64,000 nt of DNA from Arenicola marina (Eukaryota; Annelida; Polychaeta; Arenicolidae): assembly GCA_964019135.1 (NCBI GenBank), contig OZ025263.1:25109639-25173638 (forward strand), given 5' to 3'. The first letter of the stretch is position 1. The number at the start of each line of letters is the position of its first letter. Position numbers and translations under genes: made by a program. Positions 18,961 to 64,000 of the stretch are shown one piece after another. The notes beneath the pieces are model-generated. The model made no database searches and was not told the DNA's origin. It saw only the letters and a list, made by a program, of their open reading frames with translations.

Positions 18961-18984
18961 TCTTTGCAACATAATTCAGAGAAA

Positions 18985-21340: not shown

Positions 21341-21348
21341 TGTACTGG

Positions 21349-21425: not shown

Positions 21426-21429
21426 AAAA

Positions 21430-24018: not shown

Positions 24019-24478
24019 GTAGTCAAGCAATGTATCATAGATACAATGTAACGCGATGTCGTTCACTCCATTATATTCTATTAACTGTAATCAATATCAA
24101 TCAATTCAATTAATGCAATAAGATTGATGCGACCAATCATGTCTCCAGCAATTTCTCTTCAGCCAATACTGTTCAGATTATCTTTGACGCCCATTATAAG
24201 GCACATACCAATTGTTCTATCATTCATTGTTTTAGAATTGAGTCTCCTTTAACCGTTGAAACCCAGATCATTTGTTGTCGTTTCTATCCTTTAGAGTCAC
24301 TTGTATCCACCCGCCAATAGACTCCCTTCAGCCCTGTTCTGCTACTTAACCCATCTTGATCCATTCTGCCACGTACAACTTCTTTCCGCCGCTATTACTC
24401 GGCCAATCGTCATCAATGGCTTAATGAATCTAGTCGTATGATATATAATATCTAGTCGTATAATCGCTTTGCGCCACT

Positions 24479-24682
24479 GTGCTCAAGCAAATGCTAGCAA
24501 CCTTTGCTATCGAGGCGGTTCTCGGACTACAGAATGGCCAACTGGTAAGTATGGCCTCGGCATATACACCACTTAGCAATAGTATTCAGGACATTTCCCG
24601 AATGACCTGCCTGGGTCAAATAGCTACACTCAATGAGTCTCCGTTGGATATGCGCTTGTGAGATATCGCCGCTTGTTGCTTG
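24479..24682 (+). repeat. A insert, copy a
   Basis: A segment with an open frame (TFAIEAVLGLQNGQLVSMAS and following) ending TGA at 24,659-24,661. It is followed by two 38-bp repeats (24,683-24,736) and AATAAA (24,782-24,787). A second copy lies inside the 38-bp array at 28,171-28,345. The sequence CTGGTAAGTATGG within it is a consensus splice donor; the second copy has lost it. Most differences between copies alter residues, so selection on a protein is not evident. The frame as extended left starts at CTG, not ATG. Confidence 0.6.
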
Positions 24683-24840
24683 CGTGACATGGGGTGACGG
24701 CTGCCTTGACCCCTGTGTTGGGTGACATGGGATGACAACTGACCAACAACTTAGTCACTGATACCCCAGCGAACCAATATCAATAAAATCGTATAAATGT
24801 CTTCATCTTATCGCTGTTTCATGACAGCTATCTTCTTTGT

Positions 24841-25010
24841 TTGTCCAGTACATTCCAAATCCAGTGCATAGGGGTTCTACATTACGCCTTCCTTCACCCC
24901 GGCGTGCGTTCCAAGGAACCAAATAAACATGGTCGGATATTCATAGAATACTCAGGATGTCATAAAATTAATCACAGAGGGAGACATTGTTATGTGTCCA
25001 TGTTTTTGGT
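24841..25010 (+). other. diverged paralogue of the 29,001 frame
   Basis: After AATAAA (24,782) the sequence is a diverged relative of 28,985-29,210, alignable in the same reading frame. Both translations contain PNK-GR-F (PNKHGRIF here, PNKNGRMF there) and a following cysteine. This resembles the PN-GR-F signature of GRF-type zinc fingers, but the other expected cysteines are not in place, so that is a weak hint. The frame begins with TTG here. Confidence 0.35.
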
Positions 25011-25316
25011 AATAATACAACACGATATTATCGGAGTGATCGCAATGGCCGAAGGGGCTATCCCTCCCGAAGACTGGCGCCACCCATTTGCGGCGGCCAG
25101 TAAAAATCGGGTATTTTATGCTGGTTAATTTCGCCGAGCAAATGGGGCTCGCAATCTTAGTTACCCTTAACGGCCACGCGTTACCAATGTGTAGCTTTTG
25201 GAGGAGACAGCGAAGATACCATGGCTGGGCGGAAGTTTCATAATAGGATCAAAATCAAGTGTTTAAGCAATCCATGAGACCCCCGCAAAGTAGTGTTTTA
25301 TTCGCCAATGAAGGTG

Positions 25317-25452
25317 TCAGTCTCAGTCTCATTCTCAGTCTCAGTCTCGGTTTTGGTCTCAGTCTCAGTCTCAGTCTCAGTCTTAGTCTCAGTCTCAGTC
25401 TCAGTCTCAGTTTCAGTCTCAGTCTCAGTCCCAGTCTCAGTCTCAGTCTCAG
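25317..25452 (+). repeat. (CTCAGT)n hexamer array, unit 1
   Basis: 136 bp of CTCAGT with a few interruptions (TTCAGT, CCCAGT, TTAGTC, CGGTTTTGGT). Frames on both strands give SLSLSL, VSVSVS, TETETE and RLRLRL, all artefacts of the hexamer. Lengths in units 2, 3 and 4 are 130, 136 and 124 bp, differing by whole hexamers. Confidence 0.97.
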
Positions 25453-25790
25453 CGGGAGATTTCGAAACACCACGCAGAGGGGACTTCGGGTTAGTAAAAG
25501 ACAAAACCTGAGCGGGACGATTAATAAAGAACGAAAAACAATACCTGATTCATATTACGCAGTTTGAACTTAATAATCTCTGTAGTGCGATTTCCTGTGA
25601 GCATGAGAAATTCTTGACCGTGACGTCATTGCTGAGATGAATCTCTGTATAGCGATTTCCTCAGGGATGAATATATGCACAACGTATGCCGAGGGGATGA
25701 TTGTTTGTATGGTGATGTACTCAGGTTATGAATCTCGTTATTGCAATATCATCAGGACATGAATCCCTTTATTGTGATTTGACTGTCTGC
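25453..25790 (+). repeat. hairpin remnant and CRE minisatellite, unit 1 first copy
   Basis: Starts with GCGGGAGATTTCGAAACACC and a decayed CTTCGGGTT-AACCTGAG inverted repeat, then degenerate about 31-bp monomers. One perfect TGACGTCA remains at 25,621-25,628. The following bases, to about 25,965, are found only in the array. Confidence 0.75.
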
Positions 25791-25964
25791 TGCAGGCTTC
25801 TGGTGCCACAAGCGGAAGAATTGCTTCAGGACGACACTGCGAGCGAAATGATGACTACCTGTCCCTCTCGCTCTCTCTAAAACATTATGCGTAAATGCTT
25901 GACTGCAGCCATATTTTGTAAATGGGCGAATCTTCCCGAAGGAACGTATTTTAGCTGGTGTGGT

Positions 25965-26690
25965 GTGGTCTCCACGGACCGCCCACCTACCTGGTGACCC
26001 CAGCACGGGGACATACGGCGAACAACCTGCCCGTCTTTGTCACATGTGACAGCTCTCATACAGCTCTCACCCGGTGTCTGCACTTCTTGGAAATACACAT
26101 TAAACACCCATAACTGACGCGCTGACAGACTGAAGCATTTTCGTCTCTCGGTTCTGGTTCCTTACCTAGAATTATAAATTGAGTCTCGTCCCTTATACAT
26201 ATTGGTGAATGAATCCGCTTTGATAATTGACCCCAGGTGAGGAAATTAAAGAACTTGATTAAAACAGTTCCGAGAATCTGAACGATGGCTAAATGCAACA
26301 ACGGGGAAGATACCTATCCTGGCGGTGAAGCGTTGCTTGGTCTCTCAGTGGCGTATTTTACTGATATATACGTGTATGCATATATTAATGCCCCTTTCTT
26401 ACCCTATCCGCGGGAGGTGTCGTGCTTGTCTTTTACTTATATATCCCCTCTGATGTGATGTGAAGCTATGGCCCTTAGGCCTGGACTATCACCTTTCAGT
26501 GTAGAAGATCATGCGAACAGGTATTTAGCCCTTTCCGTTAAGTATGGCGTGAAACATTTCTTAATTGCGTGCATGTGCGCTATCAATGGCGTCATGCGCA
26601 ACATTTACAACTATGGAATACAATCAGCGATTTACAAGCAATATTATCCGAATGGGGACTGCGGGAGAAACATCTGACAGCCCGGACGCG
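25965..26690 (+). repeat. F module and F-B link
   Basis: Sister of the inverted copy at 3,060-3,560. It contains an inverted repeat TCACATGTGA (26,040-26,049) and CACCCGGTGTC. Short frames on both strands (for example 26,468-26,677) are unchanged between units only because the units are young. The link 26,500-26,690 is partly absent from the inverted copy. Confidence 0.65.
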
Positions 26691-27255
26691 GAAACAAGGG
26701 TAATATGGACGAAGGGAGTCCTGCCGATTCATGTCAGGAGAAAGGGCTGATGTGACATTGTATGGGACGGAGTGATGACGTCACGGGTATGGATGTATGG
26801 ATCGGTTGGCTGGCGGCCGGCGACGGCTCAGCCTCTGATTTGTGGCCAGAGACACGCGAGAGCTAACCACATGCCACATGCTGAACGTCACTTCGCATCA
26901 GTGGACGACAACGGGTAGATGCCTCTACCGCCGTACGCCGCGGCGAGCCGCGATCATACGGTCACACGATTATGACCTTGACCTTCCTAGGCTGACATGG
27001 TCACAAAGGCGCCATCGATCAACACTTCCACATCACGATATTCTCGGGGCGGTCACACTGGCCGAAGGGGCTATCAATCATGCAGTCTGTGAAGCCGACG
27101 TCGATTGGCGGCGGCCATGGCAAAACTGGTATTTTATGCTGGTTCATTTCGTCGAGCAAATGAGGCTCGTAAGCTTAGTTAGCTTTGACGCCCCCGCGCT
27201 GCCAATGCGTAGCTTTTTGAGGAGTCATTGAAGACATCATGGCTGGGCGGCAGTT
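26690..27255 (+). repeat. B module, fullest copy
   Basis: About 565 bp from AACAAGGGTAATATGGACG to CATGGCTGGGCGGCAG. It has a perfect TGACGTCA at 26,776-26,783 and CpG-rich centre CGCCGTACGCCGCG. A 129-codon frame (26,842-27,231) opens with ATG only in this position and is broken up in the older copies at 2.6 and 13.8 kb, so I do not call it a gene. Confidence 0.75.
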
Positions 27256-27850
27256 GCCTAATAGTTAGAAACAGTTAAAAAATCGAATCTGGGCAGTGCG
27301 TGAACTGGCAATGGAGGAAGCCAAAAGACACTCGCATACTGAGCGATAGATGGGGTCTGTGGGGTCCGAGACCGTAACGCTGATACCAACAACCGCAGTA
27401 TGCAGTTTTCTTCCAGGCCTAAAACAGGGCTTCGGGCCATCGATGAGTTTTGCGAAAAGCATTGTTTTATTCGCAAATGACGGTATATATAACCATACCA
27501 TGATCCTTAAGTTGGATTTTAATTGCTGAGGGTGGTGGATTGGGAGGCTTTAGAGAACAAGGGGGGAGTGTGCACTAGCACAATTCATGTAGACTGACGT
27601 GAGCCGACTGAACCAAAAGCGATTAGTGACACTGATGGGAGAAAAAAGAAATACGGAAGCGGAATGAAGGAGATATATGTGGGATAAAATACTGTCGGAC
27701 CAGTGAAAGGCGCAGACAGGCTTCACTCAGGGTATTGAAATAGGTAGAGATGGTAAAGGGGATGAATCTGCGCTGTCCCCAGGAGATGAATCTCTTTATC
27801 GTGACGTCATCCCAGGATACATCTTTGCATAGCGATGTGCTCATGGAATA
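27255..27850 (+). repeat. H module (first part) and short CRE array
   Basis: H runs to AATAGGTAGAGATGGTAAAG at about 27,755 and joins directly to CRE monomers with one TGACGTCA at 27,802-27,809. In the other H copy of the unit (32,980-33,660) the module is longer and reaches C, so the C module has been lost here. Confidence 0.7.
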
Positions 27851-27919
27851 AATCTGTTTCCGATTTCGGAAGCGTTTTTAGCTTGATCATCAGTTTGTAT
27901 GTTTCATGTTCCCGGAATC

Positions 27920-28050
27920 ACCAAATCGCCAGACTTCAGCCCATCCTTGGCTGCGGTCAAGACATGATCGGAACCATTGGACTGCAGATTGCAAGCCATC
28001 CCCCGCCGCGGGCCAGAACAGAACATGGTCAGGACCATTGAGGTGCAGAC
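27920..28050 (+). repeat. 55-bp minisatellite, two diverged copies
   Basis: Same two-copy degenerate pattern as 15,535-15,660 and 34,845-34,975, including GGCCAGAACAGAACATGGTC. Followed by CACAAAGGGCTTGAGTTGC and the 38-bp array, as at 15.6-15.7 kb. Confidence 0.85.
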
Positions 28051-28128
28051 TGCTGATAACACAAAGGGCTTGAGTTGCTGTATTGACGTCCTCCCAGCGC
28101 CGGTTGGAGCACCCCTATACACTTTGGT

Positions 28129-28772
28129 GACTTGGTGTCACGGTCGCCTCGACCCCTGTGTTGGGTGACATTTGCTATCGAGGGGGTTCTCGGACTACAG
28201 AATGGTCAAGTGTTAATTATAGTCTCGGCATATACATCACTTTGCAATAGTATTCAGGACATTTCCCGAATTACCTGGCTGGGTCAAATAGCTACACTAA
28301 ATGAGTCTCCGCTGCATATGTGCTTGTGAGATATCGTCGCTTGTTGCTTGGGTGACGTGGGGTCAGGGCTGTCTTGACCCCTGTGTTGGGTGACATGGGG
28401 TGACGGCTGCCTTGTCCCTTGCGTTTGGGTGACATGGGGTGGCGGCTGCCTTGACCCCTGTGTTGGGTGACATTGGGTGGCGGCTGCCTCAACCCCTGTG
28501 TTGGGTGAAATGTGGTGACGGTTGACTTGATCTCTGTGTTTGGGTCACATGAGGTGACCGCTGACTTGCCCCCGTGTTGGATGACATGGGGTGGCGACTG
28601 CCTTGACCACAGTGTGTGGGTGACGTGGGTGGCGGCTGCCTTGAACCCTGTGTTGGGTGACAAAGAGTGACGGCTGACTCGACCCCTGTGTTGGATGACG
28701 TGGGGTGGCGGCTGTCTTGACCCCTGTGTTAGGTGACATGGGGTGACGACTGCCTTGACCCCTGTGTTGCAT
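28129..28772 (+). repeat. 38-bp minisatellite interrupted by A insert, unit 1
   Basis: The array begins GGTGACTTGGTGTCACGGTC, is broken after TGTTGGGTGACAT by the A insert (28,171-28,345) and resumes with GGTGACGTGGGGTCAGGG for about eleven more copies. The 165-codon minus frame (28,789-28,292) arises because 38-bp repeats read all three frames in turn. Units 2 and 3 have the same structure at 40,422-41,065 and 53,317-53,960. Confidence 0.9.
28171..28345 (+). repeat. A insert, copy b, inside 38-bp array
   Basis: About 175 bp from TTTGCTATCGAGG to CGCTTGTTGCTTG. Diverged copy of 24,490-24,680. The uninterrupted 38-bp array at 15,725-16,035 shows the state without it. The bases GGGTGAC occur on both sides, but they belong to the array repeat, so a target-site duplication cannot be judged. 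Confidence 0.75.
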
Positions 28773-29000
28773 GCAGTGCCTAGGTTCATATACTGGCTGC
28801 CGAACCTATCTTACCCCATGCTCTGGGAGTCTCATTCATGGTGGACAACACGAGGCAATGCCCGCACCTTTAGTCACATGTCCCCTTCTTTCTCACATAG
28901 CAAACCCCATCATTGGCCTAAAGCTTAGCACAGTCAGCTCTAGGAGCTGAGCGGTGATACCCCAACCCAACCAATATCAATAAAACTGTTAAAGCTAATC

Positions 29001-29216
29001 ATGTTCCCTGACACCGGTGTCTGCCTTGTTTTTGTCAATGCATTCCGTATGCAATTCAAGAGGTTTCTGTATTTTGCCCTCCTTTCTCCAAAGCTTGCTT
29101 GTCAGGGAGGACAGCGACCTAACAAGAACGGCCGAATGTTTAAAGCATGCTCGCGATGTTATAAAAATATAAATCAAACAGGAAACCTATTTATGTGTTC
29201 TCGTTATATGGCGTAG
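29001..29216 (+). CDS. 71-codon open frame, hypothetical (unit 1)
   Basis: Opens with ATG (MFPDTGVCLVFVNAFRMQFK), contains PNKNGRMFKACSRCYKNINQ and ends CSRYMA before TAG at 29,214-29,216. AATAAA lies just upstream (28,979-28,984), as in the paralogue at 24.8 kb. Cysteines and the PN-GR-F stretch loosely suggest a zinc-binding GRF-like fragment; I cannot confirm that. Copies at 41,294-41,509 and 54,189-54,404 each differ by one or two residues. More likely a fragment of an unknown element protein than a host gene. Confidence 0.2.
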   Translation: MFPDTGVCLVFVNAFRMQFKRFLYFALLSPKLACQGGQRPNKNGRMFKACSRCYKNINQTGNLFMCSRYMA

Positions 29217-29377
29217 CATAAGAAATATTTCTTGTGACAGGCGAAGCCGATAGATTGGTTTTCTATGACGGCTTATTCACCATTCTTCGGGTGGTTCATT
29301 TTTCTCCTATCGGCTTTGCACAAAACAAAATTAAACCAATCGATCTACTGAAATATGTGAATGCATGAAGAGTGAGT

Positions 29378-29584
29378 GCCTTCAATTATTGAAAGCTCCT
29401 ATCTTCTCCGCAAGTCGGAGTCGAGTCCGTATACATCGTCACGCGGGAGTCACTTTTTTTTGGTGTCACAAGTGTTTAATTCCGGCGCTACCTACATCAA
29501 TGCTTATGAGCCCCAGGTGGCTTTAAGAGATACAGACAGAAACCGCTCTTGCCGAGACCCTTCATAGCAGAGTGACTTTAATCC
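29378..29584 (+). repeat. J module, unit 1
   Basis: Close match to 16,360-16,562, ending at TTTAATCCGT. Counterparts at 41,657-41,863 and 54,566-54,772. Confidence 0.75.
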
Positions 29585-30010
29585 GTTAGTCCGGGTCACT
29601 GCGGAGCCGTAAACGTGAGTAATGACTTGGTGGGGTGCCACCCTCATAGAGTCACGTGGGCGACCGCTTTCCAAAACGAGGCTGTAATGACCTCTGGCGG
29701 AAGTGACCCTGATGTAACGGCGCTAGTCTCCGACACTAAATCACCGCGACCTTGACGTGACAAGGCAAGGTGGGCGCTGAGGCCGGAAGACGTCTTCCTC
29801 CCGGGGGGATGACATCTATGGTGGAGGGGGCCACCGTTAAGCGGGTGTCAAGGCAATCTAAATTCTAGGCCAGGATTCCAGTTCATGCCGCGTCCATCCA
29901 TGTTCCCCGGCTCTGGGTGTTCATCCGGGTGACTCTCTGGCCAACGGTCACGCGGGGCAGTGGGGAACCGGAGTAGGGAGCCGCTTACCACATGAAGTGA
30001 CGTCAACATG
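29585..30010 (+). repeat. K segment, GC-rich, array only
   Basis: About 425 bp with higher GC than its surroundings and no copy in the first 24 kb. Starts exactly where J homology ends and finishes near AAGTGACGTCAACATGG (perfect TGACGTCA at 29,998-30,005). It contains GCGGAGCCGTAAACGTGAG and GGGGCAGTGGGGAACCGG. I see no frame and no known family. Units 2 and 3 carry it at 41,864-42,290 and 54,773-55,200. Confidence 0.6.
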
Positions 30011-30930
30011 GAACAATGAAAACTAAACGCAATCCTTGCGGATAATGAACTCTGGGTTTATGTGGCGGAAGGGATGTAGATTTGGCGATGACTAATGATA
30101 ACAGTCATTACTCCGCAACCGGACAGCCGATTAACCTGAAATGTTCAATGTAGCTTCGATGATCATAGACACATGTAACAATATGACAAGTACCATTAGC
30201 ATATATATTGTATGCATTTCAACTATCTGTTTCAATGTTGAGTTTCCTTATGTGCATCTGGTCATATGTATTAAAGTTCCAGCGAAAGTTGAGTCCGGTT
30301 TCTTTTGGGCTGAGACCTGGTTTGAAGCGCTTAAGCCATATGAATGCTTCCTAAATGCCACAAAAAAAAAAAAAAAAAAAAAAAAAAAGGAATGCTTCTC
30401 GAATGCCATCCTTATCGTCGTCGGAAACAATGAGGGGACGAAAGTTAAAGGTTTTGAATCTTTTTTGCTGTACGTTTCTAATTTAGAAAATTTGGGATAG
30501 GGATAATATGCAATCTTAATTTATATCTGTCCTAATAGAGTCAGATAAATGACGTCTCTTACCAAAGTCGCTGCTGAATATCATTTATAGCATAAAAGGC
30601 AAATAAAACATGTGACTAATATTGAAGTATAGTATTTAAAAAATAAGCAAATTTATAGGTGACGCAAAAACAGGAAGTAAAAATAAGTCAACATGTTACT
30701 TTGTCTCTCTCATTGCTTTGTCTAGTGTATTTGCGTTTACAACGAGATCATCTCAATAAACAAGACAACCCTTCACGAAAAAAGGAGCACGAGCTGAAAG
30801 ATAAATATGGTATGGAAAGCTAAATATGTATTTTAATTTCGTAGAATATTACTCGTTACGTTCAATCAAACTACATAGCTGAAATTTCTTCCAATGGCAG
30901 CATTTATTGTACAACGCGTCAAATTGTGCA
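30011..30930 (+). other. L segment, AT-rich, array only
   Basis: AT-rich DNA with no copy in the left 24 kb and no convincing gene. It holds a poly(A) run described separately. The 119-codon frame through the poly(A) (30,141-30,500) has a polylysine centre and shifts in the other units, so it is not called. Confidence 0.5.
30362..30388 (+). repeat. poly(A) run between imperfect direct repeats, unit 1
   Basis: 27 A residues. On the left is GAATGCTTCCTAAATGCC (30,342-30,359), on the right GAATGCTTCTCGAATGCC (30,391-30,408), 15 of 18 bases alike. Units 2 and 3 have 23 A (42,620-42,642) and 10 A, G, 12 A (55,550-55,572). This looks like a retroposed tail bounded by a target-site duplication with almost nothing else inserted, or slippage within a local duplication. 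Confidence 0.8.
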
Positions 30931-32390
30931 GGAAATTGTGTTCATCAATAAAAGTGTAATGTGGCATTTATTACGTTACTTCTAGCACAATCCGCATTTA
31001 TTAATGTACTGTCAGGCAAACTGGGCGAGCGCTCTGGTTGGCTCAATCCGTCTACCCACCGGATAATCCCAAAAGCGACCATAAAATCGTTGTTACCTCC
31101 TAGATATCAGCTTCGTCACACGATATACCTGACCGAAGTGCCTGGACGGGGAATGGGCCTACTTCGTTTTTATACTAACACCGGATATGACTCTCATGTG
31201 GTTTCGTTGGACGTCGGTATCTATTGTTATTTAGCCTTAAGTAATTGAAGCACGTCAGGCAGGGTAAAACTTTATGTTCTTATTGCGTCCCAGGGGAAAT
31301 CGAAGCAAAACCGAGGGCACGAAATGAGACATATGTGGAAGAGAGGATGTCGTAAGCTATTGATGTGGCCATGAATATTTAATGGATACATAAATGCATG
31401 TTTTAATGTCCTTACTACAGAACATATGAGGCGGACAGGTCAATGAGTACTCTCGCTGGCCACCCGAACTTGCTACCATCCGGAACTACAAAGCATTGAT
31501 GAAGGGAATGCGTTTTGCTTCAGCGTTTCATCGGGCGGATTGTGGTTTATACAATTACAAATTTATTACTATTACTATTGTTAATTAGCGAGTGGTTGGT
31601 GACTATTAGCGGCGCCCATATTGATCATTACCGTCACTTGTTTATCATCATAAACCTCGCTTATGTCCCATTCGCGCGACGGCGTCCCTTTTGCACCGCT
31701 AGGAATGGACTAGGAAAATCGAACGAACTCAAATTTGAATTCGAACTATCCATTACATTAACACGAACGATCAAAGATGTGAACTAAAGTGATCCAAAAT
31801 GTTAACCCAAACGGTCCAAATTTTTAATTCTAATGATCCAAAAATATAGCTGAAAAGGAAAACTGGCCGTTTATTGCACAAGGCAAACATTTTTCACCGT
31901 TAGAGTTACCCTTGTTTCGCAAACCCTAGGTCATTAGAGTTAACTTTATGATCAGCATAATGTGACGACTGGCCAAACGTGATTTTGTGTTGTCAGTGAC
32001 AAACAAGTGTAGAATTTAAAGTGATTCAAATTACAGTTAATTTATGATTCTTCTATTCTGTTTATTCTATGGAGGCCATGGTGTCACCTTACCGATGTGT
32101 GTTGTAACCTGAATGACATCCAGTATTTCATGGATTTCACAATGACTTGCATCGGCATGTATATAATATTACAATAATTGCATAGTTTGTAATTGTGTCT
32201 CTGAACACGTTCACAGCACGTCGATTAAACCTAAATACAGAACCGATTAACTCCGAGTGCATTTATAATGGTCAGCAAAATGAGGTGAATTGCGATTTAA
32301 CCTGGCGGCCATGTCAGGGAATCTGGGTAAAGGAGTGACCGGGTCTTGCAGCCTGTTTGTGCCGGCAGGACTCGCCTAGAGTTCCCGTTC
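30930..32390 (+). repeat. E0, leucine-frame segment, E3 and E4, unit 1
   Basis: Same order and orientation as 19,051-20,340. The leucine-rich 90-codon frame (31,515-31,787) starts at TTG and again shows seven leucines. E4 ends GGCAGGACTCGCCTAGAG-TTCCCGTTC at 32,390, where a deletion begins. Confidence 0.78.
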
Positions 32391-32401
32391 CCATTCTTCG
32401 T
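32391..32401 (+). other. deletion scar with 11-bp filler, unit 1
   Basis: Units 2 and 3 continue from GTTCCCGTTC into E5, E6 and most of S. Unit 1 instead has 11 unrelated bases (CCATTCTTCGT) and then resumes at ATGGCGTAATGCTCATCGG. Compared with unit 2 (44,645-45,290), 646 bp are missing. Short filler at a junction is typical of end-joining repair. Confidence 0.9.
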
Positions 32402-33690
32402 ATGGCGTAATGCTCATCGGGTTACGTTTAGGGGTGCGTTTAGTCGAAAACGTGGCGCAATAACTCCCTAATGTCAGTTAATATCGCGCAAGTACTAATG
32501 TTATCCTGTTAAGCTTTTGTTCCGACGTAAAATCAAATCTTAGCTAATGTTATTTTATCTTTAATCTTAAACAAAACAACTCTTTGTTCTAGTTGCATTC
32601 TATTATGTTTCTATTGAGATCGCCTACGTATATTGTGAACAACGCCTGTGTCTCGGAAAACGTTCAAGGCACGCCGAGCAAAGTTAATATGGACACCTTC
32701 AAGTAGCAGTGCACTTATAATGGTCAACATAATGAGGTGAATTTCCACCTGTACTGGCATCTATCTATCAATCTATCCATTCATCCATTCATCCACCTAC
32801 CCATCCATCCATATATCCATCCATCCATCCATCTAAAACTTCAAAAAGCCGAAGAAGCTATTCGTCCTGCAGTATGTGGCGCCGACGTCGTAAAACTATT
32901 TGCGGCGGCACGTAAAAATTGAGTATTTTACGCTGGTTAATTCCAAGGAGCAAATGAGGCTCGCAAGCTTAGATAACTTTAACATCAGGGAACAGCAATG
33001 GTGGAAGCAAAAATACGCACGCGGAATGAGCGATAAATGGGGTTTGTGTCTACCCGAGAGGCCGTAACTCTGATACCACCAAGCGCAGTCTGCAGTTTGC
33101 ATCCAGACCTAAAAACAAGGCTTCTGGCAATTGATGAGTTCTACGAACAGCATTGTTTTATTCGTCAATGAGGTGTATGTAACAATGCCACGGTCGTTAA
33201 GTTGGATGGTGGTTTGGGAGGCTAAAGAGAACGAGGGGGGAGTGTGCTCTCACGCAATTCAGGTAAACTGACATGGACCCCGAGAAGGGGCCCGTGGGTA
33301 TAAGATAATGAAGGGAGAAAAAAGATACACTGAGGCAGAACGGGATAGCTGGCTGGAAGACACACTGTGAGACGCTAGAAGAGCAGAGAAAGATGGAGAT
33401 ATAAGTGGGCAAAAAGACTGTTGGACCATTGAAAAAGTCAGACCGGCTTCAGGGTATTCAAATAGGTAGAGATGTTAAAGGGAGACGAGGAGAACAAAAG
33501 GCCAGACTGAAAGCAAAAGATATTCTTGAAGGTGGCTATCATATCTGGATGACGCAGTTACAGAGGAACATGTTCTCTCTTGATACAAGTGTACTAACAA
33601 GACAATGCAATCATTCATTGGCGATAACAAATGTAGGGAAACAAGGAGCACAATAATCGCATTATTTATTGTAGTAACAGAAATATCTTT
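32402..33690 (+). repeat. S remnant, ATCC microsatellite, B piece and H, unit 1
   Basis: S (32,402-32,757), ATCC array (32,758-32,834), last 145 bp of B (GCCGAAGAAGCTATTCG to TTAGATAACTTTAAC), then H, which is full length here and matches the inverted 1,880-2,562 copy. The 83-codon frame at 33,405-33,656 opens at GTG. Confidence 0.75.
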
Positions 33691-34062
33691 AAAGCGGCTG
33701 TGGCCGACTTGAGTTTTCTGAAGTTCGACGTTACAGCTCTGGCAATGTACCTAAATGTCATCAGTTTTCTGCGACTGGAGGTGGTAGCACGGATTAACTG
33801 CGTGTTTCTGTGAAATATGCGTCCTGACTTACCTCATGAAAAGGATTCTGGTTGGTCAAGATGGTGGTTAAAGTTCATTACACAATGGCTTTTAATGGAA
33901 GAATGCCGTAATTGGCAGCCAAATGCGCGATCGCTTTCGGGAGAGTACGGTCGTTTTTCATTGAAAGGGTGGGATTCTGTTCATTGAGATTGTAAATGCC
34001 ATTTGACCCCATCGATGTACTTAGTCACTGCCAGGAAGTATCGATGCGAAAGGAGGGTACAG

Positions 34063-34069
34063 TATAAAA
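34063..34069 (+). promoter_or_regulatory. TATA box of C module, unit 1
   Basis: TATAAAA, 44 bp before the ATG. The same spacing is kept at 14,610 and on the minus strand at 1,506, although the surrounding sequence has diverged. A start about 30 bp downstream would fall in the pyrimidine-rich CATCCCTTTCTCCC stretch and leave a very short 5' leader. Unit 2 and 3 equivalents are at 46,952 and 59,871. Confidence 0.5.
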
Positions 34070-34106
34070 CCAAAGAGTAAATAGTATCATCCCTTTCTCC
34101 CAAATA

Positions 34107-34295
34107 ATGGCCGGTGCGTCTGGATGCGGAGGAGAGGTGGGGTCGTTAGTTACAGTTATGGCCATGGATATTGCTTTCCCTGCGGGGGAGGAGGGAGGGT
34201 CGATAGAGGTGGTCAAGGAGAACGGCTTCTCGGATCACACTTGTATGTATACCTTCGCTGCTTCAGCTGCAGCAATGCCGCTCACACTGAGCTAA
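34107..34295 (+). CDS. 62-codon frame of C module, unit 1
   Basis: ATG in a good context (AATAATGG); MAGASGCGGEVGS at the start, a hydrophobic stretch (LVTVMAMDIAFPAG), an acidic centre (GEEGGSIEVVKE) and an alanine-rich end (TFAASAAAMPLTLS), then TAA. A second in-frame ATG lies in ATGGCCATGGAT. It is longer than the 35-codon frame of the older copies because of small indels after the PCG/PAG position. No family recognised; cysteines are too few for a metallothionein. A real short secreted or regulatory peptide, a non-coding RNA with a chance frame, or a relic are all possible. Confidence 0.25.
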   Translation: MAGASGCGGEVGSLVTVMAMDIAFPAGEEGGSIEVVKENGFSDHTCMYTFAASAAAMPLTLS

Positions 34296-34333
34296 AGCCC
34301 CAAGAAATATCATCAAAGGTCATGTATCAACTC

Positions 34334-34339
34334 AATAAA
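34334..34339 (+). terminator. AATAAA polyadenylation signal of C module, unit 1
   Basis: AATAAA 39 bp after the stop codon, followed by a T-rich GATTTATTATAATTGG stretch. The older copy has AATAAG at 14,903. Position relative to the frame fits a compact animal transcript; use is not shown. Confidence 0.4.
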
Positions 34340-34532
34340 GAATTGATTTATTATAATTGGCGCTGTTCAGTGAAAGCCAAGGCTCTTTGCTCACCCGCGC
34401 GTTTTGCTATGCTTGGCCGCTACGTGGGTGGATAATGTATTGTTACTGGTATTATCGCTCCTTTCTCTTTTGACCTTTATTGTTGTCACAACAGTCTCGG
34501 CGGGACGTTTCCAAGCACCATGAAGAGGGGAC

Positions 34533-34560
34533 CTCGGGTTAATAAAAGACAAAACCCGAG
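34533..34560 (+). promoter_or_regulatory. perfect hairpin with AATAAA loop, unit 1
   Basis: Arms CTCGGGTT (34,533-34,540) and AACCCGAG (34,553-34,560) around a 12-nt loop AATAAAAGACAA. Both arms are intact at 15,113-15,140 too, while nearby bases differ, and decayed at 25.49 kb and in the inverted 1.15-kb copy. Unit 2 and 3 equivalents are at 47,422 and 60,341. Confidence 0.55.
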
Positions 34561-34599
34561 CGAGATGGTTAATAAAGACCGAAAAATAATTCCTGATTC

Positions 34600-34790
34600 A
34601 TGTTACACGTCTTGAACGAAATGATCTCTGTCCTGTGAGAGCGAAAATCTCTGTATCGTGACGTCATCGGAGGATGCATCCCTTTAATGCACTGTCCTCA
34701 GGGGATGAATCTCTGTAGCGTCATCAGCGGATACGTCTTTGCTTAGGGATGTGCTCATGGGATAAATCTGTTTTCGATTTCGGAAGCGTT
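34600..34790 (+). repeat. CRE minisatellite, unit 1 second copy
   Basis: Degenerate about 31-bp monomers with one perfect TGACGTCA at 34,659-34,666, followed by a GTCCTCAGGGGATGAATCTC monomer. Same place relative to C and the 55-bp repeats as at 15.2 kb. Confidence 0.8.
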
Positions 34791-34844
34791 TTTAGCTTGA
34801 TCATCAGTTTGTAAGTTTACATGTTCCTGGCATCACCAAATAGC

Positions 34845-35090
34845 CAGACTTCAGCCCGTCTTTGGCGGCGGCCAGGACATGATCGGAACCATTGGACTGC
34901 AGATTGCAGGCCGTCTCTGGCTGCGGACAGAGCAGAACATGGTCAGGACCATTGGGTTGCGGACCGCTGATATTACAAAGGGTCTGCGTTGTGCTATCGT
35001 GGCCGGCTGCCGCACCCCTATATACATGGGTGACATGGGGTGACGGACGCCTTGATCCCTGTCCTTGGTGACAGCTGGTGAAGGCTGCCT
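34845..35090 (+). repeat. 55-bp and 38-bp minisatellites, unit 1 last copy
   Basis: Two degenerate 55-bp copies (34,845-34,975) and a remnant of about two 38-bp copies (35,025-35,090, GGGTGACATGGGGTGACGG). A 96-codon minus frame crosses both and is a repeat by-product. Confidence 0.8.
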
Positions 35091-36271
35091 TCACACATGG
35101 GTGGTCATCATCAACACAAACCGCTCAGCATTGTCACTGCTTGTACATGATATAGAAGCAGTGTGCTGGTCATAGCAGGGCTACCGTGTGTGAGATAATG
35201 GGGTTCATCGCTGATGAGGCGGAGCTCTGAAGCCAACAAACAGTGTTTAATCACTTGCTGTCATTCATTATATTATCATCAACAGGAAATAAGCTAGATA
35301 CATTTCTGCTTCCTCACAGATAGATAGTCGGCTGGAACTATCTATGTCTTTTTTGTAACAACCACGTGTCTCCGGTGTTGGAGCGCTCTAGCCACGGGGC
35401 TCAATTATTAACCCAGCACGGAATGCCTCTCTGCATGGATTTCAACATATTTCGCGGACGCAGTCGTCCCCTTGATACAAAACCCTCAATGTGTAATATC
35501 CTTTTACTGTCTAGTACTATCGTAACAGACTCCACTGTCACTCTGAGGAGTTAGGGACCTCCGGCAGAAAATTGCGCTTCTATTATTCCTCGTTGTTTCT
35601 TGCTTAAATGAAGAATGGTCACGTGAATCATTGTTGTAATAAACGCATATATAAAATATATAAGACGACAATATCTAGAGCCAAACTTTACAATCTGTAA
35701 CCGACTGAAAAACATGCAATATTTTATTAAGTAGAAAGCAAATTCCTCCCTTTACGACTACACGACGACTAGACAAATTAAAAGAAAAGAAATGTCCTTC
35801 CTTTTCCGTCACATCTGTGCAATGTCTTGAAAAATAATGGTTTCCTTCTTGGCCTTCATTGCCGACAGACGTCATCTTTTTCACTAATTACATCTGATTA
35901 CGTGTGTTGTCAACCCTGGTACCTGTAATTACTTAGACATATGACATCAATACTACCTCTACTTTATTATTCTGCCAATTGACTCAAACAAGTTTCTTGT
36001 ATTAGTTATTTACATAATCATGTGAAAATAATGAACAAGATTTCATATCCATAATGAAAGCAAGACATAACAGTACAGTCCACGGCAGAGGAAGACAAAG
36101 TTTGAAACCCACAATTGAAGCATAACATATTCATCTCTTAATTAGCATTGGATAACACATAGTGGGTTCCAATTTGTTCTTAGATATACTAAAAGACAAA
36201 AATGGTTTTTATTCATCCGCCGACTTCGGATAGTTAAATTGAACACGATTTCGTTATTCAAACCCGTGTAT
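35091..36271. other. unit-only AT-rich end, unit 1
   Basis: No copy outside the array. AT-rich with AATAAA at 35,639-35,644 and TATATAAAATATATAAG, no frame above about 70 codons that opens with ATG and has any support. It ends AACCCGTGTAT and abuts the next unit start. Confidence 0.5.
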
Positions 36272-36422
36272 TCAAGCAATGTATCATAGATACAATGTAA
36301 CGCGATGTCATTCACTGCATTATATTCTATTAACTGTAATTAATATCAATCAATTCAATTAATGCAATAAGATTGATGCGACCAATCATGTCTCCAGCAA
36401 TTTCTCTTCAGCCAATACTGTT

Positions 36423-53600: not shown

Positions 53601-56600
53601 TGTCCCTTGCGTTTGGGTGACATGGGGTGGCGGCTGCCTTGACCCCTGTGTTGGGTGACATTGGGTGGCGGCTGCCTCAACCCCTGTGTTGGGTGAAATG
53701 TGGTGACGGTTGACTTGATCTCTGTGTTTGGGTCACATGAGGTGACCGCTGACTTGCCCCCGTGTTGGATGACATGGGGTGGCGACTGCCTTGACCACAG
53801 TGTTTGGGTGACGTGGGTGGCGGCTGCCTTGAACCCTGTGTTGGGTGACAAAGAGTGACGGCTGACTCGACCCCTGTGTTGGATGACGTGGGGTGGCGGC
53901 TGTCTTGACCCCTGTGTTAGGTGACATGGGGTGACGACTGCCTTGACCCCTGTGTTGCATGCAGTGCCTAGGTTCATATACTGGCTGCCGAACCTATCTT
54001 ACCCCATGCTCTGGGAGTCTCATTCATGGTGGACAACACGAGGCAATGCCCGCACCTTTAGTCACATGTCCCCTTCTTTCTCACATAGCAAACCCCATCA
54101 TTGGCCTAAAGCTTAGCACAGTCAGCTCTAGGAGCTGAGCGGTGATACCCCAACCCAACCAATATCAATAAAACTGTTAAAGCTAATCATGTTCCCTGAC
54201 ACCGGTGTCTGCCTTGTTTTTGTCAATGCATTCCGTATGCAATTCAAGAGGTTTCTGTATTTTGCCCTCCTTTCTCCAAAGCTTGCTTTTCAGGGAGGAC
54301 AGCGACCTAACAAGAACGGCCGAATGTTTAAAGCATGCTCGCGATGTTATAAAAATATAAATCAAACAGGAAACCTATTTATGTGTTCTCGTTATATGGC
54401 GTAGCATAAGAAATATTTCTTGTGACAGGCGAAGCCGATAGATTGGTTTTCTATGACGGCTTATTCACCATTCTTCGGGTGGTTCATTTTTCTCCTATCG
54501 GCTTTGCACAAAACAAAATTAAACCAATCGATCTACTGAAATATGTGAATGCATGAAGTGTGAGTGCCTTCAATTATTGAAAGCTCCTATCTTCTCCGCA
54601 AGTCGGAGTCGAGTCCGTATACATCGTCACGCGGGAGTCACTTTTTTTTGGTGTCACAAGTGTTTAATTCCGGCGCTACCTACATCAATGCTTATGAGCC
54701 CCAGGTGGCTTTAAGAGATACAGACAGAAACCGCTCTTGCCGAGACCCTTCATAGCAGAGTGACTTTAATCCGTTAGTCCGGGTCACTGCGGAGCCGTAA
54801 ACGTGAGTAATGACTTGGTGGGGTGCCACCCTCATAGAGTCACGTGGGCGACCGCTTTCCAAAACGAGGCTGTAATGACCTCTGGCGGAAGTGACCCTGA
54901 TGTAACGGCGCTAGTCTCCGACACTAAATCACCGCGACCTTGACGTGACAAGGCAAGGTGGGCGCTGAGGCCGGAAGACGTCTTCCTCCCGGGGGGATGA
55001 CATCTATGGTGGAGGGGGCCACCGTTAAGCGGGTGTCAAGGCAATCTAAATTCTAGGCCAGGATTCCAGTTCATGCCGCGTCCATCCATGTTCCCCGGCT
55101 CTGGGTGTACACCCGGGTGACTCTCTGGGCAACGGTCACGCGGGGCAGTGGGGAACCGGAGTAGGGAGCCGCTTACCACATGAAGTGACGTCAACATGGA
55201 ACAATGAAAACTAAACGCAATCCTTGCGGATAATGAGCTCGGGGTTTATGTGGCGGAAGGGATGTAGATTTGGCGATGACTAATGATAACAGTCATTACT
55301 CCGCAACCGGACAGCCGATTAACCTGAAATTTTCAATGTAGCTTCGATGATCATAGACACATGTAACAATATGACAAGTACCATTAGCATATATATTGTA
55401 TGCATTTCAACTATCTGTTTCAATGTTGAGTTTCCTTATGTGCATCTGGTCATATGTATTAAAGTTCCAGCGAAAGTTGAGTCCGGTTTCTTTTGGGTTG
55501 AGACCTGGTTTGAAGCGCTTAAGCCATATGAATGCTTCCTAAATGGCACAAAAAAAAAAGAAAAAAAAAAAAGGAATGCTTCTCGAATGCCATCCTTATC
55601 GTCGTCGGAAACAATGAGGGGACGAAAGTTAAAGGTTTTGAATCTTTTTTGCTGTACGTTTCTAATTTAGAAAATTTGGGATAGGGATAATATGCAATCT
55701 TAATTTATATCTGTCCTAATAGAGTCAGATAAATGACGTCTCTTACCAAAGTCGCTGCTGAATATCATTTATAGCATAAAAGGCAAATAAAACATGTGAC
55801 TAATATTGAAGTATAGTATTTAAAAAATAAGCAAATTTATAGGTGACGCAAAAACAGGAAGTAAAAATAAGTCAACATGTTACTTTGTCTCTCTCATTGC
55901 TTTGTCTAGTGTATTTGCGTTTACAACGAGATCATCTCAATAAACAAGACAACCCTTCACGAAAAAAGGAGCACGAGCTGAAAGATAAATATGGTATGGA
56001 AAGCTAAATATGTATTTTAATTTCGTAGAATATTACTCGTTACGTTCAATCATACTACATAGCTGAAATTTCTTCCAATGGCAGCATTTATTGTACAACG
56101 CGTCAAATTGTGCAGGAAATTGTGTTCATCAATAAAAGTGTAATGTGGCATTTATTACGTTACTTCTAGCACAATCCGCATTTATTAATGTACTGTCAGG
56201 CAAACTGGGCGAGCGCTCTGGTTGGCTCAATCCATCTACACACCGGATAATCCCAAAACGACCATAAAATCGTTGTTACCTCCTAGATATCAGCTTCGTC
56301 ACACGATATACCTGACCGAAGGGCCTGGACGGGGAATGGGCCTACTTCGTTTTTATACTAACACCGGATATGACTCTCATGTTGTTTCGTTGGACGTCGG
56401 TATCTATTGTTATTTAGCCTTAAGTAATTGAAGCACGTCAGGCAGGGTAAAACTTTATGTTCTTATTGCGTCCCAGGGGAAATCGAAGCAAAACCGAGGG
56501 CACGAAATGAGACATATGTGGAAGAGAGGATGTCGTAAGCTATTGATGTGGCCATGAATATTTAATGGATACATAAATGCATGTTTTAATGTCCTTACTA

Positions 56601-59600
56601 CAGAACATATGAGGCGGACAGGTCAATGAGTACTCTCGCTGGCCACCCGAACTTGCTACCATCCGGAACTACAAAGCATTGATGAAGGGAATGCGTTTTG
56701 CTTCAGCGTTTCATCGGGCGGATTGTGGTTTATACAATTACAAATTTATTACTATTACTATTGTTAATTAGCGAGTGGTTGGTGACTATTAGCGGCGCCC
56801 ATATTGATCATTACCGTCACTTGTTTATCATCATAAACCTCGCTTATGTCCCATTCGCGCGACGGCGTCCCTTTTGCACCGCTAGGACTGGACTAGGAAA
56901 CTCGAACGAACTCAAATTTGAATTCGAACTATCCAACACATTAACACGAACGATCAAAGATATGAACTAAAGTGATCCAAAATGTTAACCCAAACGGTCC
57001 AAATTTTTAATTCTAATGATCCAAAAATATAGCTCAAAAGGAAAACTGGCCGTTTATTGCACAAGGCAAACATTTTTCACCGTTAGAGTTACCCTTGTTT
57101 CGCAAACCCTAGGTCATTAGAGTTAACTTTATGATCAGCATAATGTGACGACTGGCCAAACGTGATTTTGTGTTGTCAGTGACAAACAAGTGTAGAATTT
57201 AAAATGATTCAAATTACAGTTAATTTATGATTCTTCTATTCTGTTTATTCTATGGAGGCCATGGTGTCACCTTACCGATGTGTGTTGTAACCTGAATGAC
57301 ATCCAGTATTTCATGGATTTCACAATGACTTGCATCGGCATGTATATAATATTACAATAATTGCATAGTTTGTAATTGTGTCTCTGAACACGTTCACAGC
57401 ACGTCGATTAAACCTAAATACAGAACCGATTAACTCCGAGTGCATTTGTAATGGTCAGCAAAATGAGGTGAATTGCGATTTAACCTGGCGGCCATGTCAG
57501 GGAATCTGGGTAAAGGAGTGACCGGGTCTTGCAGCCTGTTTGTGCCGGCAGGACTCGCCTAGAGTTCCCGTTCTGGTACCCTCTCTGACCCCATCTCTCC
57601 TAACTCGCTCCCCCCCTCCCCTTCATGTACCCGCACACCCCTCCACCACACCTCCACCTTGCCATGTTGCCCTTACCCCGGCAGCCTCTTCCCACACGCC
57701 ATACCCAGGTCCGGCTTTACCTCCCCCGCCTTCCCCCCCCGACAACCTTCCTTCACATGATCTAGGGGACAACGCCCTCGCGCTAGCCTCCACCCCCACC
57801 CCCTCCCCGCCCACTCCCTCGCCTCCTTTCCTCATCTTCCCACCAGACACTACTCTCTTCCCACTTTGACAATCCACTGCACACCACCAGAGGCCGTCCC
57901 TCAGCACTAGGGGCCATTGGAAGCCATTGGAAGCATCAGCTGGCAGAGTCGCCATGGCGTGCAGCACCCACTAGCGCCGCGTGGTGGCGCTCAGCAAGCA
58001 GCACTGACTCCACAACCCAAACTTCCCGCACGGTGGCGCTAAGAGCTCTGTTTATTTAATACAGCAAAAATTTCTACGAATGCATGTCTCAATTTGTGCA
58101 ATTATCGGGAGAGGATACTTCCCAGATGCTTATATCTGTGAAGGCTATTGATGCGTTGTTCTGCAAATGGATTTCGCAAACGTATCTATATCGGTCAGGA
58201 AACACCCCGAATTCAGATGGCGTAATGCTCATCGGGTTACGTTTAGGGGTACGTTTAGTCGAAAACGTGGCGCAATAACTCCCTAATGTCAGTTAATATC
58301 GCGCAAGTACTAATGTTATCCTGTTAAGCTTTTGTTCCGACGTAAAATCAAATCTTAGCTAATGTTATTTTATCTTTAATCTTAAACAAAACAACTCTTT
58401 GTTCTAGTTGCATTCTATTATGTTTCTATTGAGATCGCCTACGTATATTGTGAACAACGCCTGTGTCTCGGAAAACGTTCAAGGCACGCCGAGCAAAGTT
58501 AATATGGACACCTTCAAGTAGCAGTGCACTTATAATGGTCAACATAATGAGGTGAATTTCCACCTGTACTGGCATCTATCTATCAATCTATCCATTCATC
58601 CATTCATCCACCTACCCATCCATCCATATATCCATCCATCCATCCATCTAAAACTTCAAAAAGCCGAAGAAGCTATTCGTCCCGCAGTATGTGGCGCCGA
58701 CGTCGTAAAACTATTTGCGGCGGCACGTAAAAATTGAGTATTTTACGCTGGTTAATTCCAAGGAGCAAATGAGGCTCGCAAGCTTAGATAACTTTAACAT
58801 CAGGGAACAGCAATGGTGGAAGCAAAAATACGCACGCGGAATGAGCGATAAATGGGGTTTGTGTCTACCCGAGAGGCCGTAACTCTGATACCACCAAGCG
58901 CAGTCTGCAGTTTGCATCCAGACCTAAAAACAAGGCTTCTGGCAATTGATGAGTTCTACGAACAGCATTGTTTTATTCGTCAATGAGGTGTATGTAACAA
59001 TGCCACGGTCGTTAAGTTGGATGGTGGTTTGGGAGGCTAAAGAGAACGAGGGGGGAGTGTGCTCTCACGCAATTCAGGTAAACTGACATGGACCCCGAGA
59101 AGGGGCCCGTGGGTATAAGATAATGAAGGGAGAAAAAAGATACACTGAGGCAGAACGGGATAGCTGGCTGGAAGACACACTGTGAGACGCTAGAAGAGCA
59201 GAGAAAGATGGAGATATAAGTGGGCAAAAAGACTGTTGGACCATTGAAAAAGTCAGACCGGCTTCAGGGTATTCAAATAGGTAGAGATGTTAAAGGGAGA
59301 CGAGGAGAACAAAAGGCCAGACTGAAAGCAAAAGATATTCTTGAAGGTGGCTATCATATCTGGATGACGCAGTTACAGAGGAACATGTTCTCTCTTGATA
59401 CAAGTGTACTAACAAGACAATGCAATCATTCATTGGCGATAACAAATGTAGGGAAACAAGGAGCACAATAATCGCATTATTTATTGTAGTAACAGAAATA
59501 TCTTTAAAGCGGCTGTGGCCGACTTGAGTTTTCTGAAGTTCGACGTTACAGCTCTGGCAATGTACCTAAATGTCATCAGTTTTCTGCGACTGGAGGTGGT

Positions 59601-59914
59601 AGCACGGATTAACTGCGTGTTTCTGTGAAATATGACTTACCTCATGAAAAGGATTCTGGTTGGTCAAGATGGTGGTTAAAGTTCATTACACAATGGCTTT
59701 TAATGGAAGAATGCCGTAATTGGCAGCCAAATGCGCGATCGCTTTCGGGAGAGTACGGTCGTTTTTCATTGAAAGGGTGGGATTCTGTTCATTGAGATTG
59801 TAAATGCCATTTGACCCCATCGATGTACTTAGTCACTGCCAGGAAGTATCGATGCGAAAGGAGGGTACAGTATAAAACCAAAGAGTAAATAGTATCATCC
59901 CTTTCTCCCAAATA

Positions 59915-60103
59915 ATGGCCGGTGCGTCTGGATGCGGAGGAGAGGTGGGGTCGTTAGTTACAGTTATGGCCATGGATATTGCTTTCCCTGCGGGGGAGGA
60001 GGGAGGGTCGATAGAGGTGGTCAAGGAGAACGGCTTCTCGGATCACACTTGTATGTATACCTTCGCTGCTTCAGCTGCAGCAATGCCGCTCACACTGAGC
60101 TAA
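59915..60103 (+). CDS. 62-codon frame of C module, unit 3
   Basis: Same frame as units 1 and 2 with TATA at 59,871 and AATAAA at 60,142. The 7-bp loss upstream (near 59,633) leaves the TATA-ATG spacing unchanged. Confidence 0.25.
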   Translation: MAGASGCGGEVGSLVTVMAMDIAFPAGEEGGSIEVVKENGFSDHTCMYTFAASAAAMPLTLS

Positions 60104-62079
60104 AGCCCCAAGAAATATCATCAAAGGTCATGTATCAACTCAATAAAGAATTGATTTATTATAATTGGCGCTGTTCAGTGAAAGCCAAGGCTCTTTGCTC
60201 ACCCGCGCGTTTTGCTATGCTTGGCCGCTACGTGGGTGGATAATGTATTGTTACTGGTATTATCGCTCCTTTCTCTTTTGACCTTTATTGTTGTCACAAC
60301 AGTCTCGGCGGGACGTTTCCAAGCACCATGAAGAGGGGACCTCGGGTTAATAAAAGACAAAACCCGAGCGAGATGGTTAATAAAGACCGAAAAATAATTC
60401 CTGATTCATGTTACACGTCTTGAACGAAATGATTTCTGTCCTGTGAGAGCGAAAATCTCTGTATCGTGACGTCATCGGAGGATGCATCCCTTTAATGCAC
60501 TGTCCTCAGGGGATGAATCTCTGTAGCGTCATCAGCGGATACGTCTTTGCTTAGGGATGTGCTCATGGGATAAATCTGTTTTCGATTTCGGAAGCGTTTT
60601 TAGCTTGATCATCAGTTTGTAAGTTTACATGTTCCTGGCATCACCAAATAGCCAGACTTCAGCCCGTCTTTGGCGGCGGCCAGGACATGATCGGAACCAT
60701 TGGACTGCAGATTGCAGGCCGTCTCTGGCTGCGGACAGAGCAGAACATGGTCAGGACCATTGGGTTGCGGACCGCTGATATTACAAAGGGTCTGCGTTGT
60801 GCTATCGTGGCCGGCTGCCGCACCCCTATATACATGGGTGGCATGGGGTGACGGACGCCTTGATCCCTGTCCTTGGTGACAGCTGGTGAAGGCTGCCTTC
60901 ACACATGGGTGGTCATCATCAACAGAAACCGCTCAGCATTGTCACTGCTTGTACATGATATAGAAGCAGTGTGCTGGTCATAGCAGGGCTACCGTGTGTG
61001 AGATAATGGGGTTCATCGCTGATGAGGCGGAGCTCTGAAGCCAACAAACAGTGTTTAATCACTTGCTGTCATTCATTATATTATCATCAACAGGAAATAA
61101 GCTAGATACATTTCTGCTTCCTCACAGATAGATAGTCGGCTGGAACTATCTATGTCTTTTTTGTAACAACCACGTGTCTCCGGTGTTGGAGCGCTCTAGC
61201 CACGGGGCTCAATTATTAACCCAGCACGGAATGCCTCTCTGCATGGATTTCAACATATTTCGCGGACGCAGTCGTCCCCTTGATACAAAACCCTCAATGT
61301 GTAATATCCTTTTACTGTCTAGTACTATCGTAACAGACTCCACTGTCACTCTGAGGAGTTAGGGACCTCCGGCAGAAAATTGCGCTTCTATTATTCCTCG
61401 TTGTTTCTTGCTTAAATGAAGAATGGTCACGGGAATCATTGTTGTAATAAACGCATATATAAAATATATAAGACGACAATATCTAGAGCCAAACTTTACA
61501 ATCTGTAACCGACTGAAAAACATGCAATATTTTATTAAGTAGAAAGCAAATTCCTCCCTTTACGACTACACGACGACTAGACAAATTAAAAGAAAAGAAA
61601 TGTCCTTCCTTTTCCGTCACATCTGTGCAATGTCTTGAAAACTAATGGTTTCCTTCTTGGCCTTCATTGCCGACAGACGTCATCTTTTTCACTAATTACA
61701 TCTGATTACGTGTGTTGTCAACCCTGGTACCTGTAATTACTTAGACATATGACATCAATACTACCTCTACTTTATTATTCTGCCAATTGACTCAAACAAG
61801 TTTCTTGTATTAGTTATTTACATAATCATGTGAAAATAATGAACAAGATTTCATATCCATAATGAAAGCAAGACATAACAGTACAGTCCACGGCAGAGGA
61901 AGACAAAGTTTGAAACCCACAATTGAAGCATAACATATTCATCTCTTAATTAGCATTGGATAACACATAGTGGGTTCCAATTTGTTCTTAGATATACTAA
62001 AAGACAAAAATGGTTTTTATTCATCCGCCGACTTCGGATAGTTAAATTGAACACGATTTCGTTATTCAAACCCGTGTAT

Positions 62080-64000
62080 TCAAGCAATGTATCATAGATA
62101 CAATGTAACGCGATGTCATTCACTGCATTATATTCTATTAACTGTAATTAATATCAATCAATTCAATTAATGCAATAAGATTGATGCGACCAATCATGTC
62201 TCCAGCAATTTCTCTTCAGCCAATACTGTTCATATATTTATCTTTGACATATATATATCTTTGATATCTTTGATATCTTTGATATATCTTTGACGCCCAT
62301 TATAAGGCACATACCAATTGTTCTATCATTCATTGTTTTAGAATTGAGTCTCCTTTAACCGTTGAAACCCAGATCATTTGTTGTCGTTTCTATCCTTTTA
62401 GAGTCACTTGTATCCACCCGCCAATAGACTCCCTTCAGCCCTGTTCTGCTACTTAACCCATCTTGATCCATTCTGCCACGTACAACTTCTTTCCGCCGCT
62501 ATTACTCGGCCAATCGTCATCAACCGCTTAATGAATCTAGTCGTATGATATATAATATCTAGTCGTATAATCGCTTTGCGCCACTGTGCTCAAGCCAATG
62601 CTAGCAACCTTTGCTATCGAGGCGGTTCTCGGACTACAGAATGGCCAACTGGTAAGTATGGCCTCGGCATATACACCACTTAGCAATAGTGTTCAGGACA
62701 TTTCCCGAATGACCTGCCTGGGTCAAATAGCTACACTCAATGAGTCTCCGTTGGATATGCGCTTGTGAGATATCGTCGCTTGTTGCTTGCGTGACATGGG
62801 GTGACGGCTGCCTTGACCCCTGTGTTGGGTGACATGGGATGACAACTGACCAACAACTTAGTCACTGATACCCCAGCGAACCAATATCAATAAAATCGTA
62901 TAAATGTCTTCATCTTATCGCTGTTTCATGACAGCTATCTTCTTTGTTTGTCCAGTACATTCCAAATCCAGTGCATAGGGGTTCTACATTACGCCTTCCT
63001 TCACCCCGGCGTGCGTTCCAAGGAACCAAATAAACATGGTCGGATATTCATAGAATACTCAGGATGTCATAAAATTAATCACAGAGGGAGACATTGTTAT
63101 GTGTCCATGTTTTTGGTAATAATACAACACGATATTATCGGAGTGATCGCAATGGCCGAAGGGGCTATCCCTCCCGAAGACTGGCGCCACCCATTTGTGG
63201 CGGACAGTAAAAATCGGGTATTTTATGCTGGTTAATTTCGCCGAGCAAATGGGGCTTGCAATCTTAGTTACCCTTAACGGCCACGCGTTGCCAATGTGTA
63301 GCTTTTGGAGGAGACAGCGAAGATACCATGGCTGGGCGGAAGTTTCATAATAGGATCAAAATCAAGTGTTTAAGCAATCCATGAGACCCCCGCAAAGTAG
63401 TGTTTTATTCGCCAATGAAGGTGTCAGTCTCAGTCTCATTCTCAGTCTCAGTCTCGGTTTTGGTCTCAGTCTCAGTCTCAGTCTCAGTCTCAGTCTCAGT
63501 CTCAGTTTCAGTCTCAGTCTCAGTCCCAGTCTCAGTCTCAGTCTCAGCGGGAGATTTCGAAACACCACGCAGAGGGGACTTCGGGTTAGTAAAAGAAAAA
63601 ACCTGAGCGGGACGATTAATAAAGAACGAAAAACAATACCTGATTCATATTACGCAGTTTGAACTTGATAATCTCTGTAGTGCGATTTCCTGTGAGCATG
63701 AGAAATTCTTGACCGTGACGTCATTGCTGAGATGAATCTCTGTATAGCGATTTCCTCAGGGATGAATATATGCACAACGTATGCCGAGGGGATGATTGTT
63801 TGTATGGTGATGTACTCAGGTTATGAATCTCGTTATTGCCATATCATCAGGACATGAATCCCTTTATTGTGATTTGACTGTCTGCTGCAGGCTTCTGGTG
63901 CCACAAGCGGAAGAATTGCTTCAGGACGACACTGCGAGCGAAATGATGACTACCTGTCCCTCTCGCTCTCTCTAAAACATTATGCGTAAATGCTTGACTG
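62080..64000 (+). repeat. macrosatellite unit 4, cut by window end
   Basis: First 1.92 kb of a further unit: expanded ATCTTTGAT repeat, A insert (62,586-62,789), B 3' half, hexamer array of 124 bp (63,424-63,547) and a CRE array with TGACGTCA at 63,716. The array therefore continues beyond the window. Confidence 0.95.

Follow-up and report, generated by a model that had tools for sequence, protein, structure and literature searches.

The window analysed here, a 64,000-nucleotide stretch of the Arenicola marina genome, ends in a tandem repeat with units of up to 12.9 kb. The question raised by this locus is what kind of sequence the repeat represents (a satellite, a transcribed locus, a mobile element or a product of assembly) and how so long a unit could have arisen.

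Array layout and differences among units

Three full units and a partial fourth lie head to tail on the forward strand up to the window end. Unit 1 (24016–36264; 12,249 bp) forms the left edge of the array and carries private deletions of 635 bp (at approximately 32391) and 49 bp. It is followed by unit 2 (36265–49153; 12,889 bp), unit 3 (49154–62072; 12,919 bp), and unit 4 (62073–64000), which is cut by the window end and has 1,928 bp within the window. Self-BLAST yielded a single 18.7-kb match with 99.3% identity, far above chance. It placed the recurring start sequence exactly where the preliminary description had located it, at 24,023, 36,272, 49,161, and 62,080, and leftward extension moves the boundary 7 bp to the left. 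The head-to-tail array was likewise borne out: the units are adjacent, share one orientation, and measure several kb each, which is the structure of a macrosatellite; in humans, the term denotes multi-kb tandem units whose number varies and which usually occupy one or two sites (PMC3018141). The pairwise identities of the full units over aligned bases are 99.45% (units 1 and 2), 99.55% (units 1 and 3), and 99.61% (units 2 and 3). The description of the units as nearly identical therefore holds for the aligned bases but not for unit 1 as a whole, given its two deletions.

Such identities raise the possibility that the assembler placed one unit, or its two haplotypes, several times. Differences of this size (identities of approximately 99.5%) fall within the allelic range of many animals, and the window contains just 3.1 units. 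However, each unit has its own variants, with 36, 30, and 16 private SNPs in units 1, 2, and 3, respectively, and private indels ranging from 4 to 635 bp. The 635-bp deletion, with a filler of approximately 11 bp on the forward strand (32391–32401), is confined to unit 1. The missing stretch is present in units 2 and 3 and in an older copy at 19054–21437, indicating that it was lost by unit 1, and the filler at the break resembles what end-joining leaves. Furthermore, two haplotypes would supply no more than two versions and could not account for three or four, and the left edge with different flanking sequence is present in the assembly. The private SNPs and indels in each unit make assembler looping an unlikely source of the copies, as far as the sequence can tell, and we consider an artefact of assembly very improbable.

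The variation is unevenly spread in two regions, both picked post hoc after the data had been seen: the last 3.4 kb of the unit (approximately 58690–62072 in unit 3) contains only 6 of the 86 variable sites (window-scan permutation p = 0.001), and the first 1.2 kb of unit 1 has an excess of private SNPs (10 of 36, p = 0.002). In the last 3.4 kb, the divergence between units 1 and 2 is 0.06%, compared with 0.5–1.1% elsewhere. Exchange between units offers a simple explanation of this low variation, with constraint as an alternative. The excess in unit 1 is as expected for the edge of an array, where recombination is lower.

Diverged modules and the older flanking array

While the units are nearly identical to each other, module copies within one unit are only approximately 65–91% identical. 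In a tree of the X module, same-position copies from different units cluster together, apart from the other copies in their own unit. Both observations bear out the earlier proposal that block amplification followed an older divergence of the internal modules, since the units differ far less than the modules inside them and the X tree groups by position. The 12.9-kb unit carries three partial, mutually diverged module series and is therefore a higher-order block. In unit 3, all on the forward strand, the first series (49692–50855) comprises J, 38-bp, Z, X, D, E, and C (CRE at 50809); the second (50999–54773) comprises P, R2, X, D, C, L, 55-bp, K, J, a 38-bp array, Z, and Z2; and the third (58663–60910) comprises X, D, S, E, C, L, 55-bp, and K/38-bp. 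Between the second and third series lies the G block (G1–G6, 56153–58661), with 22-bp repeats, a C-rich stretch, and (CATC)n. As in satellite higher-order repeats, the blocks are near-identical and the monomers inside them diverged. The monomer is not regular and of fixed length; the module copies follow an order, but they are interrupted by deletions and insertions and unevenly spaced.

The unit had also been called a pure repeat mosaic. Most of it is indeed repeated, but the wording overstates the case: in the non-redundant window (left flank plus one unit), the share of sequence with another, mostly diverged copy is 88% in the flank and 70% in the unit, which leaves approximately 30% of the unit (49154–49687, 54774–56152, 60911–62072, and small gaps) present only once.

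Nor is the region "already shuffled" in the sense of a free rearrangement. Mapping of approximately 30 modules gave a canonical order, R2-X-D-S-E-C(CRE)-L-55bp-K-J-38bp-Z-Z2-G block-Q-55bp-R1-R2, which is kept in both the left flank and the unit. Older, diverged module copies in the flank follow it on the forward strand at 5397–24015 and, inverted, on the reverse strand at 1–4355. In an order test that is approximate because it used module strings assembled manually from the module map, 13 of the 20 flank adjacencies also occurred in the unit, compared with a mean of 2 and a maximum of 9 among 20,000 shuffles, none of which reached 13; in the inverted part (1–4.36 kb), five of the seven module pairs are in canonical order (p = 0.014). 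The order shared by flank and unit thus identifies the region as the decayed remains of an old array whose repeat was long and complex. Successive modules in the flank are spaced at approximately 6.2, 8.0, and 9.9 kb, which suggests an old complex repeat of roughly 6–8 kb that has since become irregular.

Several other features of the flank can be distinguished. The orientation switches within 4256–5617: below approximately 4.36 kb the modules lie on the minus strand, above 5.4 kb they lie on the plus strand, and Q modules face one another on either side of the switch. At 19054–21437, the G block recurs as a 2.4-kb copy that is 95.6% identical to that of the units, ends on the right in a (CATC)n tract, and is younger than the old modules but older than the recent array. 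Separate from the 12.9-kb array and independent of it, a recent tandem duplication at 6590–9444 consists of two copies of a 1.41-kb unit with 99.6% identity (98.8% over a longer alignment). Another recent local expansion, a 46-bp tandem repeat in 4.2 copies with 99% identity, is located at 290–484.

Near the end of unit 3, K (to 60881) and a further 38-bp repeat give way to 1.7 kb of AT-rich sequence, after which J starts at 62607 in the next unit. This AT-rich sequence (AT1+AT2, 60911–62606, forward strand, 38% GC) spans the junction of units 3 and 4, and further copies lie at 35103–36798 and 47992–49687. In the copy at 53241–53535, K is directly joined to J. The most plausible reading of the AT-rich sequence is an insertion that separates K from J and continues through the supposed unit junction, because the two modules are directly adjacent in one copy and split at the unit junction. 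At the left edge of the array, only the AT2 end of the insertion is present (24016–24499). The recurring "start sequence" is therefore not a natural start; it lies within the insertion and looks like a start because the left edge of the array falls there. At that edge (24016–24027), an R2/X module is joined to the AT-rich segment across approximately 10 bp of imperfect shared sequence (CGTG..GTCAA / CGTGTATTCAA), and we infer that it is probably a secondary, illegitimate junction.

The head-to-tail copies and the fixed edge might also be expected if a large nonautonomous mobile element had inserted in tandem or had given rise to a rolling-circle product, and the 1.7-kb AT-rich segment, a discrete insertion, could itself be an element. 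A large nonautonomous element had been suggested in the preliminary description, but the search for an element's hallmarks argues against it: there are no inverted repeats of at least 25 bp in one unit with its flanks, no element proteins or traces of them, and no LTR-like pair of high-identity direct ends within a unit. Terminal inverted repeats sought for the AT-rich insertion amounted to arms of just 17–23 nt with 74–82% identity, not at both ends, and an LTR or TIR element was rejected for want of ends. Moreover, the flank has the modules of the unit in the order of the unit, and the unit was therefore probably made from resident sequence. A mobile element is the most improbable of the explanations considered here.

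Coding content and the CRE-bearing module

No protein-coding or structural RNA content was detected in the repeat. Six-frame searches of the unit and flank against Pfam gave only sub-threshold chance matches, and none of the 159 frame tests on diverged copies showed a third-position excess at p < 0.05. Rfam searches returned no RNA at the gathering score, nor any in the unit at E ≤ 1; ARAGORN found no tRNA; and neither an rRNA gene nor a fragment of one is present in the unit or flank. The weak matches to NESP55 (E 0.005, one frame), Luciferase (E 0.005), Penaeidin, DUF963, Cas6, and HOXA11-AS1_6 are far below the curated cut-offs and were attributed to chance. The array sequence has no match in phages, viral contigs, or prokaryote genomes, and the repeat strings have none in the literature searched. 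The repeat structure and the lack of genes fit a eukaryotic genome. A tandem array of protein-coding genes was rejected because domains and coding signal are absent; there is also no conserved coding sequence in each unit. The unit thus appears to be noncoding as far as domain, frame, and RNA tests reach, a result with which short exons of an unknown gene would be compatible. Neither a gene nor a mobile element is probably the identity of the repeat.

A possible indication of function is the CRE octamer TGACGTCA, which occurs 21 times versus 1.0 expected. Each unit carries about five octamers, which come from three independent sources, the module types C, R2, and U. Most of the 21 are copies of a few modules, and the excess is therefore largely repeat multiplicity. 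In the C module, copies of which lie at 15258–15484, 50783–50855, 52957–53060, and 60440–60594, the CRE is the best-conserved 8-bp window (96% versus a mean of 74%) and is intact in six of the seven copies; the octamer had been noticed first and its conservation was tested afterwards. In the R2 module, it is not outstanding (rank 75 of 309). Its conservation in the C module could reflect a selected regulatory role, which would count against a reading without function, and the octamer is a lead towards possible transcription from the CRE-bearing module.

These observations bring in the alternative of a functional, transcribed locus, in which a CRE-driven promoter would produce long noncoding RNA or piRNA precursors and selection would have kept or expanded the array. 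Several human macrosatellites are transcribed in the testis (PMC3018141), which is in line with such a role, as are the number of CRE octamers and their top-ranking conservation in the C module. On the other hand, the octamer excess is mostly the multiplicity of a few modules, and the repeat is without the traces of transposon proteins that are typical of piRNA clusters. We regard a functional locus as unlikely. The specific proposal that the C module is a conserved promoter and the unit a transcribed regulatory unit (a germline noncoding RNA or piRNA precursor), with selection or drive rather than chance behind the expansion of the array, seems quite unlikely.

Growth of the array and comparison with known systems

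We consider it likely that the repeat is a noncoding macrosatellite with higher-order structure, which grew from an old tandem array by unequal exchange or replication misalignment and has no selected host function. The satellite reading and recent block amplification are supported by the identities of the units compared with their internal divergence. Nearby tandem duplications of other sizes and ages (46 bp × 4.2 and 1.41 kb × 2) also count in its favor. The starting point was probably an old tandem array of a complex repeat of roughly 6–8 kb (R2-X-D-S-E-CRE-L-55bp-K-J-38bp-Z-Z2-G block-Q-55bp-R), which decayed through mutation, internal deletions, insertions, and inversion. A 12.9-kb segment containing parts of several decayed repeats and the 1.7-kb AT-rich insertion was then tandemly duplicated, and its copies multiplied; the most likely mechanism is that near-identical units underwent unequal crossing-over or were misaligned during replication. 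The absence of a selected host function is likewise what we infer for the array.

Human macrosatellites such as D4Z4, DXZ4, and RS447 resemble this array in their head-to-tail, near-identical units of several kb (PMC3018141), whereas the unit here is about three to four times as long and yielded no gene, and the window contains 3.1 units. A CTCF macrosatellite like DXZ4 was considered and rejected: the 14 CTCF-like matches versus 9.5 expected are at chance level (7 of 100 shuffles reach this number). The intergenic spacer of rDNA has a period of about 10–13 kb, short subrepeats, and a repeated promoter-like module, and in all three respects the array is similar to it. An rDNA spacer was rejected in view of the missing rRNA sequences.

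Higher-order repeats are known from alpha satellite and from HsatII, where they measure 5.8 kb, and they combine diverged monomers with recent near-identical blocks (PMC2588610). The array described here shares with them the older diverged monomers beside a recent block and an inversion in the older part, but its older monomer is kb-long, irregular in length, and composed of many module types and insertions, not short and regular. Among macrosatellites, a unit that approaches 13 kb and has no detectable gene counts as long. The locus preserves several rounds of satellite growth next to one another, from the decayed old repeats through the intermediate copy with 95.6% identity to the recent block with 99.5% identity. 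Judged on sequence evidence, the array is real and is a recent noncoding macrosatellite that grew within an older array, now decayed, composed of the same modules; if so, it provides a useful case for the origin of higher-order repeats from kb-sized monomers. Its kind is already known, and its great unit length and visible age layers make it a good example of how satellite arrays grow.
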